Below, piece by piece: positions 43,178 through 50,049 of a stretch of 50,574 nucleotides of DNA. The stretch's first letter is position 1, and each line of letters begins with the position of its first letter. The translations under genes and the position numbers were made by a program. The stretch lies in the NCBI GenBank assembly GCA_026770575.1, contig MU657234.1, forward strand, positions 163,522 through 214,095. Direction: 5' to 3'. The DNA is from Pelagophyceae sp. CCMP2097. Lineage: Eukaryota > Sar > Pelagophyceae. The notes under the pieces were generated by a model. That model worked only from the letters and a program-made list of their open reading frames with translations, had not been told where the DNA came from and searched no databases.

Positions 43178-44957
43178 TCACGGGAGGAAGCGCGGCGCGT
43201 CATCGTCCGGGCGGCGCTCGACCCAGGTGTAGCCTTTGGTCGTGACACCCTGGCGCTCCGACGTCTCCGGGTGCGCAATGTACGCGGCGCCACGCGGCCT
43301 CTCCTGGTGCGCGAGGTGCGCGAGGCGGCCGCTGACGAGGTGCAGGACCGAGTAGGGCACGGGCCGGTGCAGCGAAAAGGCGTAAAGCGCATTGCCCAGG
43401 TCCTGCCTAGTGTCGCGGCGGTCGGTGGTCGGCGGCGGTTCCCAAACGACGCGGGTTATATGCGGGTTAAAGTCGTCGATCTGCTTCGCTGTCTGGTCCG
43501 CGGCGGCGCGAAAGAGCCAGGGGGCGCGGACGTCTGCGTGTGCGAAAGCCCAGAGGATGTTGGAAATGTCGCGCGGCGTGAAAAAAGTAATGCGCCGCAG
43601 CGCCGCCGCCGCCACGGCGTCGAACAGCGCCGGCGCTGCGATGCCCGCCGTCGCGTAGGCCCATGCCGTGATAGCCAGGGCCTGCGGAGTAAAGGCGGCC
43701 ATCTGGCGCGGGGCCTCCAGAGCCACGGCGCGGAAGAGCTGCAGCGCCTTGACGCTTGCCTTTGCGTACGCCCAGACGATCATGGTCAGCTCCTGCGGTT
43801 GAAAATCTGAGACGGTCTCCGGCGCCACAGAGGCAATCGCTTCGAAGAGGTCGAGGACGTATTCAGACACGTAGTCTGCCGTCGCAAAAGCCCATACCGT
43901 GTTCGCCACTTCCTGCGACTTGAACGATTTGACTTGAGCCAAAGCCGCCACCGCGATTGAACCAAAGAGGTCGGGCGCCTCGACGCCGGCCTTTGCGTAC
44001 GCGTAGGCGACGTTCGAGAGCTCGCGCGCCTCGAAATTGGAAATGGAAGCCACCGCCTGCTCGGCCAGCGCCTCGAAGAGCGGCGCCGTCGCCAGCACGC
44101 CGACGCTCGCCCGCACGCGCGAGAGGCCCCAGGCCGCCGCAGAGACGTGCCTCGGCTCCCATAACTCTGGCCCCTCGGCGAGGCTCGTCATCGTGGCGAC
44201 GACGAGCTGCATGGCCCTAGGGCGGTAGTTTGGCGAGAACGAGGCGTCTGCGTCTTGCAAAGTGCCGAGACGGTGCAGCGCCGTGGCTAGGTGGACGTGC
44301 GTAAAGTCCGCGCACCGGCCCTTGAAGAGGAAGAGCACGTCCGACGCCGTGTGGCAGTCGATGATCCGGTCGTTCAGCGTTGCCGCCGCCGACGGCACCG
44401 TCCGTTGGCGCTGCAACGCCACGTCGAGCGCGCGGCCGCCCAGCAGCGACCCGTGCACGCGCAGGCGCACGGCGTCGCAGTCGCGCGACTGGATCGTCAC
44501 CTAGCGCCGCCCTGACGGCGACAAAGGTCACCGCACGACCTCCGCGGGCCAGGCCGCGCGCCGCGCCCCGGCGCGTATCGAGCCTCTGCCGCCGCTCGCG
44601 GCTCCACGGCAACTCCGTCGGTGGTTCTCGTCTGCCGCATTGCCGGCACCGCCCGTGCATACGCCGTCGCGCCTCGAGAAGATGTCCCCAGGCCCGACTT
44701 GAAGAAGACGCTCCGGACGTCGCAGGGCAAACCGGCGAACCTATCGAGCGTGCGCAGGGATCCGACTCGACGATGAATCGACACTGTTCGAAACGGATAT
44801 CGAGTCAAACGCACACTCGGCGCACGGTGTCCTTCGTCGCGTCGAGCGGGACGTTGCGGACGACGAACTCGGCGCCGGCGACTTTGGAAACGGCAAACCC
44901 GCGCGCGGCAGCGCGCGGCGCGCCGGGGCGCCGCCGCGCGACGAAACACCAGGCCAT
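43178..44957 (-). CDS. RRM plus helical-repeat (FAST/RAP or OPR-like) protein, probably organellar
   Basis: Minus-strand exons 44957-44815, 44740-44650, 44500-43464, 43406-43178 (499 aa). The N-terminus (MAWCFVARRRPGAPRAAARG) looks like a mitochondrial or plastid presequence. Joined exons then give an RRM-like fold: AEFVVRNVPLDATKDTVRRV, VRSVFFKSGLGTSSRGATAY, GSLLGGRALDVALQ. From about residue 140 come at least six ~38-residue helical repeats with consensus F-x-P/S-Q-x-L-x-N-x-x-W-A-Y/F-A-x-A (for example QELTMIVWAYAKASVKALQL). This resembles the repeats of RAP/FAST and octotricopeptide organelle RNA-binding proteins. No RAP domain is visible at the C-terminus. The last intron seems to use a GC donor. 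It likely regulates organelle RNA. Confidence 0.82.
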
Positions 44958-45668: not shown

Positions 45669-48600
45669 ATGCCCACCGCCGCCGCGCCGTCGGAGGCCGG
45701 AGAGGCGACACCGCCGCCGCGCGCCGCGCTGGCGCTGCAGTGGCGCTACGACGTGCTCGCCGAGCCCGACGCCGGGCTCGTCAACACGTGCGCCTTCCGC
45801 GCCGCGGCTCCCCGTTTTCGCAGAGGCGCCGGGGCGGCGCGGTGCCGGGCGTCGCGACGGGGCGCCGGCCGCGCGGCGCGCGTCGACGATCCCCGCGGCG
45901 GACCCTCGTCGCAGGTGCGTGCGCGTGCTGCGCGACTATCTCGGCGAAGCCGCGGGCTGCGTCATCCCCGAGGTGCGTGCTCGCCGACGACACGTGTCAG
46001 AGGGCGCCTGTCGCTCTCGAGGCGGTGCCGCGCTTCATTCTGCGTGTGGCACGCGAGCGGCTCGTGTGGGGCGCGCGCACGGATGCATCATCGCTCCTCG
46101 CAGGCGAATTGCCGCGCTTTTGTCGAGGAGATCCGGTCCCGACCGGCGTCGCGTCCTCGACCGGCGGGTCGTCGGGAATTGAGCTCCCGGGGCCCGCCGT
46201 CACGCGCTTCTAGCCTTAACATGAGCTTAGGGTGAACATGAGTACGGCGTGGGTCGACCAAGTTCCTCTGCGCTTCGCCGCGTCCGAGGCCGCCGCGCCG
46301 AGGCCGCGCCGCGCAAGGGCGCCGGCGCAAAGGGATCCGTCTCGCGGGGCGGTCTCCGTGTATGAGTCTTAGCGGCTCCAGGTACCACAATTTCAAGCAC
46401 GGCGCCGACGTGCTGCTGCAAGTGGCGCACTACATGTTCGTCTGCGGCGCGCGCGAGATGCTCACGCCGCTGGACATGCTCGCCCTCGGCGTCGCCGCAA
46501 TCGCGCGCGAAGGCCGCGTCCGCGACTACGGGCACTCCCGGCGCGCGCGCCGTCGTGCGGCATGCGGGTTTTCGTTTGTCTCCCGGCGAGCCTACGTATC
46601 GTCCTAGGCACGACGTGTCGCACCCGGGCCTGAACAATGCTTATCAAGTCAACGCGCAGACGTGGCTGGCCGTGCGCTACTCGGACGCGGCCGTCCTGGA
46701 GGCGCACAGCGCCGCCGTCGTCAGCGACCTCGCTCGCGCCCACGGCCTCCTCGCCGGCCTCGGCGCCGCCGACTTCCGAAGAGCGCGCAACGTCATCTGC
46801 GCCTCGATTCTCGGCACGGACATGGCCTCGCATTTTAAGACGATGCAGCGCCTCGAAGCGTTTTGCGACGCGCATGCCGGCCCGCGGGTGGTGCTCGAGG
46901 CCGAGGAGCGCAAGTTCCTCTGCGACGTTCTCCTGCACTGCGCCGACGTCTCCAACCCGGCGCGGCCCTGGGCGGCGTCCAAGAAGTGGAGCGACCTCGT
47001 CTGCGCCGAGTTCTTCCTGCAGGGAGACCGCGAGGCCGCCGCGGGGCTGCCAATCTCGCCAAACTGCAACCGCCGCGCCTCGCAGCAGCCGCAGCTCGCC
47101 ATGGCCTTTGGCGACCACATCGTTCAACCGCTCTTCCAGCTCGCCGCGCGCCTCCTGCCGAGCCTCGAAGCCACGGCGCTTGCCGACCTCACCGCGAACC
47201 GCAAGCACTGGGCCGCGCGCAGGCACTGGGCCGCGCTCAGGCACCCCGACGGCCCGGCCGACGCGCCGCCGCCCGCCTTCGGGACGAGCGCCGGGACGAG
47301 CGACGCGCCGCCGACGGCCGCCGACGAGGCCGCCGCCGAGACCGACGCGGCCGCGCTGTCCCCCGTAGAATCCGCCGTGGAGCCGCCGCAGATGCCGCCG
47401 CCGGCCGACGGCGGCGGCTCCGCGTCGCCAGCGAGGCAGCCCCGGTTGCGCCGCGGCCTGTCGCTGTCCGAGGCCGCCCTCGACGTGCGGTGGCAGCGGA
47501 CGCTCACGCCCACGCCGAGGGACGGCGCCGGGGTTTTTGCTCTTCCCTCGGACGGCGCGCCCTCGGACGCAGCCGACGACGAAACGCGCGCGGGCTGCGA
47601 GCAGCGGCTCGTCCCAGCGGATGGCGCGCCCGCGGACGAGCGACCCGCGCTCGGCCGCAGCCCGTCGCAGCCGCGCCGTTTGTTTGACGGCGCGGACGCG
47701 GCGGCGCCGCACCCGCGGGGCGCGGTGCGCTGGGCCTCGACCCTCGCGGGACCGGTGGCGCATTTCTTGCTCCTGGTCGTCGGCGTCGCCGCGCTCGTCG
47801 GCGACGCGGCGCGCCGCGCGTGGCTGCCCGTCAGCGCCGACGCAGCCGTCGACGCGTTTCTCGCCACCGCGGGTGCCCTCCTCATTTGCGAGGTAGCGCT
47901 GCGCGCGGCTACGCACTCTGGCGGCGCGTTCGAGGCCGTCGTCGACGCCGCCGGCGCTTTGTCGCTCATCGTCGACGCTTCCGCGGTGCGCTTCGCGGTC
48001 GCGGCGGTCCACGGCGCGGTGACGACGGCGCGCACGGTTCAATTCGCCCGCTTCTGCAGCTGCTGCCGCCTGGCACGGGTCGCCCGCCTCGCCAAGTTCG
48101 ACGACGGCTCAGAGGCTGCAGGGGCGGCCGCCAGCGGCATTTCGCCGGCGGCGCTCAAGGGCGATCCTCGGTCACCCGGCGCGCAGCCCCGGTCGGCGGC
48201 GCTCGGCGCGCGGCTGGCGGAGCGCATGTCGCGGTCCATGGTCGCCGTCGTGCTCCTAGTCGCCCTCGTGGCGCCGGCGCCGGCGCGCGAATCAGATGAG
48301 GCGCAAATCGCGCTCCTCCGGGCGCTGCGGGACATGCCCCACGCGGCGCGCACCGCGTTCGTCGCGGACTCGTACGCGGAAACGTTCGACGTCCTCGCCC
48401 TCCGCGTGGCCGGCGTCGTCTTCGTGCCAGAGGACCACGCGAGGCTCGCCGCATTGCGCGCAAACGAGGTCGCGCGCTACTCGGCGGGCGACGACGGCGG
48501 CCGCGCGCGCCCCGACGGGACGACGGAGGTGCTCCAGGACGTGCGGCGCGCGTCGGCGGCGGCGGCGGCGGGCGAAGTCTTCACGCTCTCGCTCCTCGCC

Positions 48601-50049
48601 GTCCTGCTGGCCGCGGCGTCCTGGGGCTTCCGCCGCGCCGCGAGCGACGCTGTCGTGCGCCCAGTGCGGCGGCTGCTGCGCCTCGCTGCCGAGGTGGCGC
48701 GCGCTCTGGACGTGCTGCAGTGCGAGGCGAGCGTCGAGACGGACCTCCTCGACCACTCCATCGGCAAGGTCGCCGAGCTTTTGCGCCTCGGCTTCGGCGC
48801 GGCGGGCCTCGGCGACGCCGCGCCGGCGGTCCCGCGCGGGCCGGCCGTTTCGCGATTCGTCGCCGTCGACATCGAGGCCGCCTTTGCCTTCGTCGACTTC
48901 CACTCGCTCGCACACGTCGCCCTCGAAGAGCTGCGGCCCGACGTCGCGCGGCTCTACGTGGACCTCGTCGTGCACGTCGTCCGCGCCGGCGTCGACGCCT
49001 GCGGCGGCGTCGAGGCCCGGCGCGCGGGCACGGCGTTCCTCCTCGTCTGGCGGACGGCGCCGTCAGCGGACGTTGCGGAGGAGGCCCTGGCCGCGGCGCC
49101 GCGCGCGGGCCCGGCGCCGCGCGCGAAGCGGCCGTCTTGGACGGGCCCCAGCGACACGGACGCGTTCCCGGGCGAGTCGCCCTGCGACTGCGCCTTCCGG
49201 GCCGTCGTCCTCGCGGGCCTCGACGCGGTGCACCTCAACGAAACGACGGCGCGGGACCCGCGGGGCCTCGCGCAGCAGCTGGCGGCGATGAACTTCCCCG
49301 CCGACGACGACGACATGAACTTCCCCGCCGACGACGAAGACGACGCGAGTCCGGTTGGCATCGCGCGCCGCCTCTCCGAGGCGATGGCGCGCCGCCTCGG
49401 GCGCCGCGCCGATTTGGAGGGAGACTGGCGCGGGGCGGACCGCGCGGCTGCGACGCTGGAGAGGGACGGCTGCGCCCTCGCCTTTGCAGCGGGCCTCCAC
49501 TTCGGCGCCGCCGTGGAGCACCGGTCCTCGGAAGGCACCCCGACGTTCCTCTCACCGCACGTCCGCGTCGCATCGCGCCTCGGCGCCGCTGCGGCGGCCG
49601 TCTACGGCGCGCCGCTGCTCATGTCCGGCCCGTTCGTGGAGCGCCTCGCGCCGGAGACGCGCGCTATGGTGCGGCACGTCGACCGCGCCAAGCTGCGCGG
49701 CGTCGAAAAACCGCTGGCGCTGCACGCCTACGACTTTCTGCCCGCGGACGCCGCGGCAGAGACGCCCGCAGACGCCGCGGCAGAGGCGCCGGCAACCGAG
49801 GCGCCGGCGGCCGAGGCTGCGGGCCCGGCGGCGGTCGTGGGCGGCATCGCGGGGCGGGCCTACGCGCTCGACTTCCGCCGCGGCGTGGCCGCGTACCTGG
49901 ACGGAGACTGGGCCCTGGCGTACCAAATCTTCGACGACGCTCCCGCCGACTACGCTGACGACGCGCCGGCGCGCGCAATCGTCGACTTCATGGCCTCGCA
50001 CGGCAACATCTGCCCCGCGGACTGGCGCGGCTACCGCACCCTCCCATGA
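45669..50049 (+). CDS. Cyclic-nucleotide phosphodiesterase / voltage-sensor-like / class III cyclase-like fusion
   Basis: ATG 45669. Resolved exons are 46104-46135, 46382-46504 and 46608-50049. One or more exons between 45669 and 46103 are not resolved. The PDE HD domain is complete: YHNFKHGADVLLQVAHY, HDVSHPGLNN, LLHCADVSNPARP, EFFLQGDREAAAGLPISP, DHIVQPLF. A disordered Pro/Ala linker follows. Then come hydrophobic segments ending in an S4-like helix with Arg/Lys every third residue (CCRLARVARLAKF; genomic about 47750-48105). Two more membrane helices flank a ~110-residue extracytoplasmic part (48230-48640). The C-terminus (about 48840-49735) aligns with class III cyclases (VAVDIEAAFAFVDF, TAFLLVWR, GLHFGAAVE, SPHVRVASRLGAAA, LRGVEKPLALHAYDF). 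The GD-type second metal aspartate is Thr (AGTAFLL) and the conserved Asn is Arg. Intron 46505-46607 starts GC. Confidence 0.88.

Follow-up and report, generated by a model that had tools for sequence, protein, structure and literature searches.

A predicted membrane-bound phosphodiesterase joined to a voltage-sensor-like block and a degenerate cyclase-fold domain in the genome of a pelagophyte alga

The window analysed in this study, a stretch of 50,574 nucleotides of contig MU657234.1 from Pelagophyceae sp. CCMP2097, carries at positions 45669-50049 of its forward strand a gene that joins in one chain an N-terminal class I cyclic-nucleotide phosphodiesterase (PDE), a membrane block resembling a voltage-sensor domain (VSD) and a predicted class III cyclase fold whose active site is degenerate. 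On balance we consider it fairly probable that the product is a single membrane protein in which the PDE is the working enzyme, controlled by the voltage-sensor-type block, by a domain outside the membrane and by a dead cyclase domain. The initial annotation of the gene had proposed cyclic-nucleotide turnover within one protein; because metal Asp 2, Lys, Asp and Asn of the cyclase active site are gone, this most likely reduces to regulated hydrolysis.

Fusion relatives and the phosphodiesterase domain

A search with the PDE region identified 31 proteins, nine of which carry PDEase_I together with PF26726 in precomputed domains, the latter being also listed for VSD-cyclase relatives and not reported by the Pfam copy run here. 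The domain order of the window protein recurs in seven of the 31 (P0121, P0122, P0123, P0124, P0125, P0127 and P0128), including two from Chrysophaeum taylorii (P0122 and P0125) and one from Aureococcus anophagefferens (P0128). They align with the window protein along its length, except for P0124, which ends early and whose catalytic columns Asp, Asn and Arg were left out, and P0128, whose listed model has gaps and is without part of the PDE, S2 and S3. The existence of collinear full-length relatives with the same chain order bears out the initial proposal of one gene with all three parts. Compared with P0121, the window protein is 66% identical across the PDE and 42% across the cyclase part, with values of 33% for S1-S4, 38% for the outside domain and 18% for the linker; in the comparison with P0121-P0123 no domain is better conserved than the PDE (62-66%, against 38-42% for the cyclase part).

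A profile search with PDEase_I (238 positions, cut-off 24.8 bits), one of the checks proposed at the outset, gave two matches above the cut-off in adjacent exons, at 46383-46502 (profile positions 1-40, 30.5 bits) and 46609-47175 (positions 42-234, 185.4 bits), with one residue at the junction, which identifies the domain as a class I PDE. The metal ligands H, H, D and D are all present (in HNFKH, HD and HCAD), so that the complete catalytic motif set first described holds for these ligands; it does not extend to the conserved glutamine of the purine clamp, which on alignment to PDE4C is Ala in the window protein. Six relatives have Ser or Gly at this position, and P0127 has Gln. We treated the glutamine as conserved and not as class-defining, because it is replaced in the active enzyme MpCAPE: the accessible parts of two reports give Asn or Thr at this position in CAPE proteins (PMC8115329) and describe the PDE of MpCAPE as cleaving cAMP and, less well, cGMP (PMC5159850). 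By analogy, loss of the glutamine need not be fatal to the window PDE.

Membrane block and cyclase-like domain

The membrane and cyclase parts of the window protein, used as a query in a protein search, gave no match at E <= 0.001, which we suppose to be due to swamping by alanine-rich words, and relatives were found instead by searching with a PDE-free paralogue from the same genome (the C147 gene, L018:3820-6675) and with the PDE region. Two stretches of the window match this paralogue (E 2.1e-7 and 1.4e-6). Counts for PDE-free relatives cover the 120 listed of 1210 matches, of which alignment A1 (91 rows) took 83 and alignment A2 took 69. The window protein proved homologous over its length to this VSD-cyclase family, with VSD, TM5, outside part, TM6 and cyclase in the same order, and a family proline, at 48661, is shared by it and all of the 120 PDE-free relatives that were listed.

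Structure prediction, likewise proposed at the outset and applied to the membrane and cyclase parts, modelled a four-helix bundle in which basic residues line up in S4-like fashion. In the model the next transmembrane helix, TM5, leads to an alpha/beta domain outside the membrane, which is followed by TM6 and then by a class III cyclase fold, in agreement with the two further membrane helices around an outside domain that had been foreseen. The voltage-sensor domain of Ci-VSP was among the best structural matches to the membrane block in VIA-align, in which helical bundles get middling Z scores by chance. Since a Foldseek search found nothing similar to the membrane half at E <= 0.001, the VSD assignment rests on VIA-align and on the S4 and S2/S3 columns. 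We call the block voltage-sensor-like only, because the window protein has no Ion_trans match in a Pfam scan up to E 5; PDEase_I was the sole profile found, the suggested searches with Ion_trans and Guanylate_cyc being productive in relatives. Among the fusion relatives, P0127 alone passes the Ion_trans cut-off of 25 bits (27.0), P0121-P0124 score 17.3-20.9 bits and P0125 and P0128 give no match. An ion channel was considered and disfavoured, as the model lacks a pore segment between TM5 and TM6, where it has the predicted alpha/beta domain instead.

A rather unlikely but not negligible alternative holds that the membrane block is an anchor and ligand receptor, in which the outside domain senses, S1-S4 are a leftover and voltage plays no role. 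It draws on the confidently modelled outside domain, on S1-S4 being the least conserved folded domain (31-33% identity to P0121-P0123) and on the window S4 itself, which reads R-Q-R-S-R-R-R-K at three-residue steps: the basic row of the S4-like helix first noticed is there, but two of its eight positions are lost, and in the charge-transfer centre, where S2 Glu and S3 Asp are kept, the family S2 Phe is Leu. Against it, all eight S4 positions are basic in P0121-P0124 and P0128 (two are lost in P0125), S2 Phe and Glu are retained in P0121-P0125, and among the listed PDE-free relatives with letters at S4 a basic residue occupies seven of the eight positions in 97-100% of cases and the remaining position in 96 of 109. 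The preferred reading has support of its own: four proteins (P0131, P0132, P0133 and P0138) carry a voltage-sensor-type block first and then the PDE, with no Pfam cyclase match; Ion_trans scores are 30.9, 26.3 and 51.0 bits in P0132, P0133 and P0138, respectively, and P0131 is cut at its start. Because sensor-type block and PDE have here been joined in a second order, a functional link between them is favoured. The 694-residue VSD-PDE P0138 has a layout that recalls voltage-sensing phosphatases. With 74 Ion_trans matches across the 66 Mb host genome, voltage signals in this alga are plausible.

The cyclase-like domain adopts the class III fold in the structure model, as first proposed, but most of its active site is gone and cyclase activity has probably been lost: four of the six scored catalytic positions (metal Asp 2, Lys, Asp and Asn) are replaced, metal Asp 1 and Arg being kept. 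Guanylate_cyc, which matched in relatives, was not found in the Pfam scan of the window protein up to E 5. Lys and metal Asp 2 are lost in all seven proteins formed by the window protein and the six fusions of its clade; among the listed PDE-free relatives, Lys is kept in 120/120 and metal Asp 2 in 111/120. Only P0127, of eight fusions compared, retains both catalytic residue sets, namely the PDE glutamine and both metal Asp, Lys, Asp, Asn and Arg of the cyclase.

The preservation of P0127, with PDEase_I (260 bits), Ion_trans and Guanylate_cyc (28 bits) all above cut-off, and the reported ability of CAPE to do both, as stated in the accessible portions of its descriptions (PMC5159850, PMC8115329), would suit a chain that both makes and destroys cyclic nucleotide under membrane control; for the window gene such an active bifunctional enzyme is very unlikely given the lost cyclase residues. 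Still less likely is a heterodimer in which the cyclase-like domain supplies one half and a paralogue lacking a PDE, for example that encoded by the C147 gene, the other. That paralogue has both metal Asp and Lys, with Glu at the Asn place, and P0122 and P0128 have Asp and Asn without metal Asp 2, but the window domain has lost Asp and Asn too, so that neither half of the active site would be complete.

Under the preferred reading, a PDE controlled by the membrane block, the outside domain and a dead cyclase domain, the enzyme output would be hydrolysis, and six membrane helices would place both protein ends in the cytosol. The class III cyclase fold usually functions as a dimer. We infer that the PDE is active, that the cyclase fold mediates dimerisation and that S4 movement, or ligand binding outside, would be relayed by TM5/TM6 and the long helix to the dimer of cyclase folds, the PDE being reached either from this dimer or straight through the linker; cyclase fold and long helix after TM6 would thus act as a relay. 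Voltage is the presumed input; the true signal may instead enter through the outside domain. More tentatively, voltage might directly set hydrolysis through a VSD-coupled PDE, the partner cyclase having been converted in pelagophytes into a pseudocyclase that binds nucleotides and acts as a gate on the PDE, to give a hydrolase with two inputs, voltage and nucleotide; judged by its residues, the partner cyclase would still be intact in P0127. We regard this extended reading as doubtful. The gene would tie membrane potential directly, at the molecular level, to the breakdown of cyclic nucleotides in marine algae, would offer a naturally occurring PDE under voltage control for comparison with voltage-sensing phosphatases, and would be a case of a make-and-break enzyme pair in which one half turned pseudoenzyme in one clade, a relative (P0127) having kept both. 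P0127, P0121 and P0138 are ready test proteins.

Origin of the fusion and gene model

In a PDE tree of 32 rows inferred by a careful method (P0150 and P0151 were left out, the motif used for cutting not being found in them), the window protein, the six fusions and P0126 formed one clade (support 100/99). A VSD-cyclase tree, inferred by a quick method from 54 of 128 aligned rows, also recovered the window protein and the six fusions in one clade (Shimodaira-Hasegawa-like approximate likelihood ratio test, SH-aLRT, 99), and a branch with support 100 separated these seven plus P0127 from 46 PDE-free rows, several branches being long. P0127 was placed without resolution in the PDE tree. A separate origin of P0127 was considered; its grouping with the other fusions, a group defined after the tree was inspected, was not rejected by the approximately unbiased test (p-AU 0.40). 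A single fusion event followed by cyclase decay in the window's clade is a possible history that fits the data. The predicted protein P0126 joins its PDE to a fatty acid desaturase domain, and could be a merged gene model.

The stop-free frame extends over 46366-50046; at local base composition, a random run of this length is expected at about 4e-7 per start. The gene model guided by P0121 (Table 1) encodes a protein of 1270 residues with its start at 45669, with three GT-AG and two GC-AG introns, all splice sites being inferred by comparison with P0121. Introns 1-3 were placed by eye, and introns 4 and 5 by enumeration of GT-AG and GC-AG choices. For intron 4, only one of 26 in-frame choices, with a GC donor, yields the relatives' sequence; in-frame GT donors are present for introns 4 and 5, and none yields that sequence. 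The two adjoining introns 46270-46381 and 46505-46607 both came out as GC-AG among the enumerated choices, which would be unusual. The initial annotation had everything in one 3.4-kb exon, a view that needs correcting: the HNxxH motif and the N-terminal part of the PDE sit in upstream exons.

An artefact, be it a pair of adjoining genes sharing a GC-rich open frame or a gene in decay, is extremely improbable: exon 6 is 75% GC, its other frames are long as well and the window protein itself is not listed in the protein-search matches, but seven other proteins have the same parts in the same order, on which ground two merged genes were rejected, no frameshift was seen against them, and GC content at third codon positions is 0.89-0.93 in six of six segments measured.

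Table 1. Inferred exons, introns, domains and catalytic positions of the gene (positions in the window)
Feature	Positions	Strand	Basis
Exon 1: start codon and N-terminal PDE region (inferred)	45669-45787	+	P0121-guided exon model; relatives collinear
Intron 1, GT-AG	45788-45914	+	P0121-guided model
Exon 2 (inferred)	45915-45972	+	relatives' CVRVL motif matched
Intron 2, GT-AG	45973-46103	+	P0121-guided model
Exon 3 (inferred)	46104-46135	+	P0121-guided model
Intron 3, GT-AG	46136-46230	+	P0121-guided model
Exon 4 (inferred)	46231-46269	+	relatives' NM-T-AWVD-VPL matched
Intron 4, GC-AG	46270-46381	+	sole choice yielding VPLYHNF as in relatives
Exon 5: PDE HNxxH (YHNFKH) and first 40 Pfam positions	46382-46504	+	PDEase_I 1-40
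Intron 5, GC-AG	46505-46607	+	puts HDxxHPG back in register with relatives
Exon 6: remaining PDE, linker, membrane block, cyclase-like domain, C-terminus, stop	46608-50049	+	stop-free frame
PDE catalytic domain	46609-47175	+	PDEase_I 185.4 bits; alignment to PDE4C
PDE metal ligands H-D	46609-46614	+	alignment to PDE4C
PDE metal ligand D	46945-46947	+	alignment to PDE4C
PDE glutamine position, Ala	47098-47100	+	alignment to PDE4C
Low-complexity linker, predicted cytoplasmic	47251-47715	+	13-25% identity to five fusion relatives compared; <=18% to four
S1-S4 voltage-sensor-like block	47737-48096	+	
S4	48022-48096	+	part of S1-S4 block
TM5	48229-48288	+	hydropathy and structure model
Alpha/beta domain between TM5 and TM6, predicted extracellular	48289-48549	+	model, predicted local distance difference test (pLDDT) mostly >85
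TM6, then long helix and second helix to ~48795	48571-48636	+	model helices 277-335, 342-359
Class III cyclase-fold domain (predicted), active site degenerate	48844-49743	+	
Metal Asp 1, kept	48895	+	
Lys -> Arg	49018	+	
Metal Asp 2 -> Thr	49030	+	
Asp -> Thr	49543	+	
Asn -> Arg	49564	+	
Arg, kept	49576	+	
C-terminal helical segment, conserved in relatives	49873-50046	+	46-55% identity to P0121-P0123; model helices between 711 and 761

On the minus strand of the window, an adjoining frame (43178-44500) contains FAST_1-like repeats (27.2 bits, cut-off 27.4). Elsewhere in the same genome, contig C66 (L019:5485-6387, L009:3-5360) holds a second cyclase-PDE combination of other design, with a Guanylate_cyc fragment followed by an AAA_16 ATPase, a PH match just below cut-off and PDEase_I in one long frame; it resembles a soluble adenylyl cyclase to which a PDE has been appended, the cyclase exon being only putatively part of the same transcript.

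Comparison with known systems

Ci-VSP resembles the window protein in coupling a voltage-sensor domain to a cytosolic enzyme; that enzyme is a lipid phosphatase, and Ci-VSP is not known to have a TM5-outside-TM6 part. Channel-cyclase fusions of Paramecium, Tetrahymena and Plasmodium, which Weber is said to have described in 2004, reportedly join a voltage-type membrane block to a cyclase; they are not known to contain a PDE.

The arrangement had been put forward as undescribed, and no paper in the capped lists of open-licence literature deals with a single chain that unites a PDE, a voltage sensor and a cyclase; combinations of two of these parts have been published, and the claim has to be narrowed accordingly. 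TgPDE4 of Toxoplasma likewise combines a class I PDE with an ion-transport domain, but the accessible text on it mentions no cyclase domain (PMC7720076). VSD-cyclase proteins are known from stramenopiles and alveolates, as the available sections of their description state (PMC12223298). The Phytophthora proteins PPTG_13136 and PPTG_13761 treated there share with the window protein an S4-bearing block without a pore followed by a cyclase domain, whereas an additional PDE at the N-terminus and the degeneration of the cyclase active site set the window protein apart; a flagellar location is reported for PPTG_13136 only. By their domain order, and not by comparison with PPTG sequences, the C147 paralogue and the 120 listed relatives look to be of the PPTG_13136 kind.

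According to the accessible parts of two reports (PMC5159850, PMC8115329), CAPE and CAPE-like proteins have, like the window protein, an N-terminal class I PDE, several membrane helices and a C-terminal class III cyclase, and their PDE glutamine is also replaced (PMC8115329); this likeness is drawn from the published description, not from sequence comparison. CAPE retains the cyclase catalytic residues that the window protein lacks, and no voltage sensor is mentioned for it, the word "voltage" being absent from PMC8115329. The same source places PDE-transmembrane-cyclase proteins in streptophytes and saprolegnian oomycetes and reports the plant and oomycete fusions as independent. The oomycete CAPE-like proteins may contain, undescribed, the same membrane block as the pelagophyte protein.
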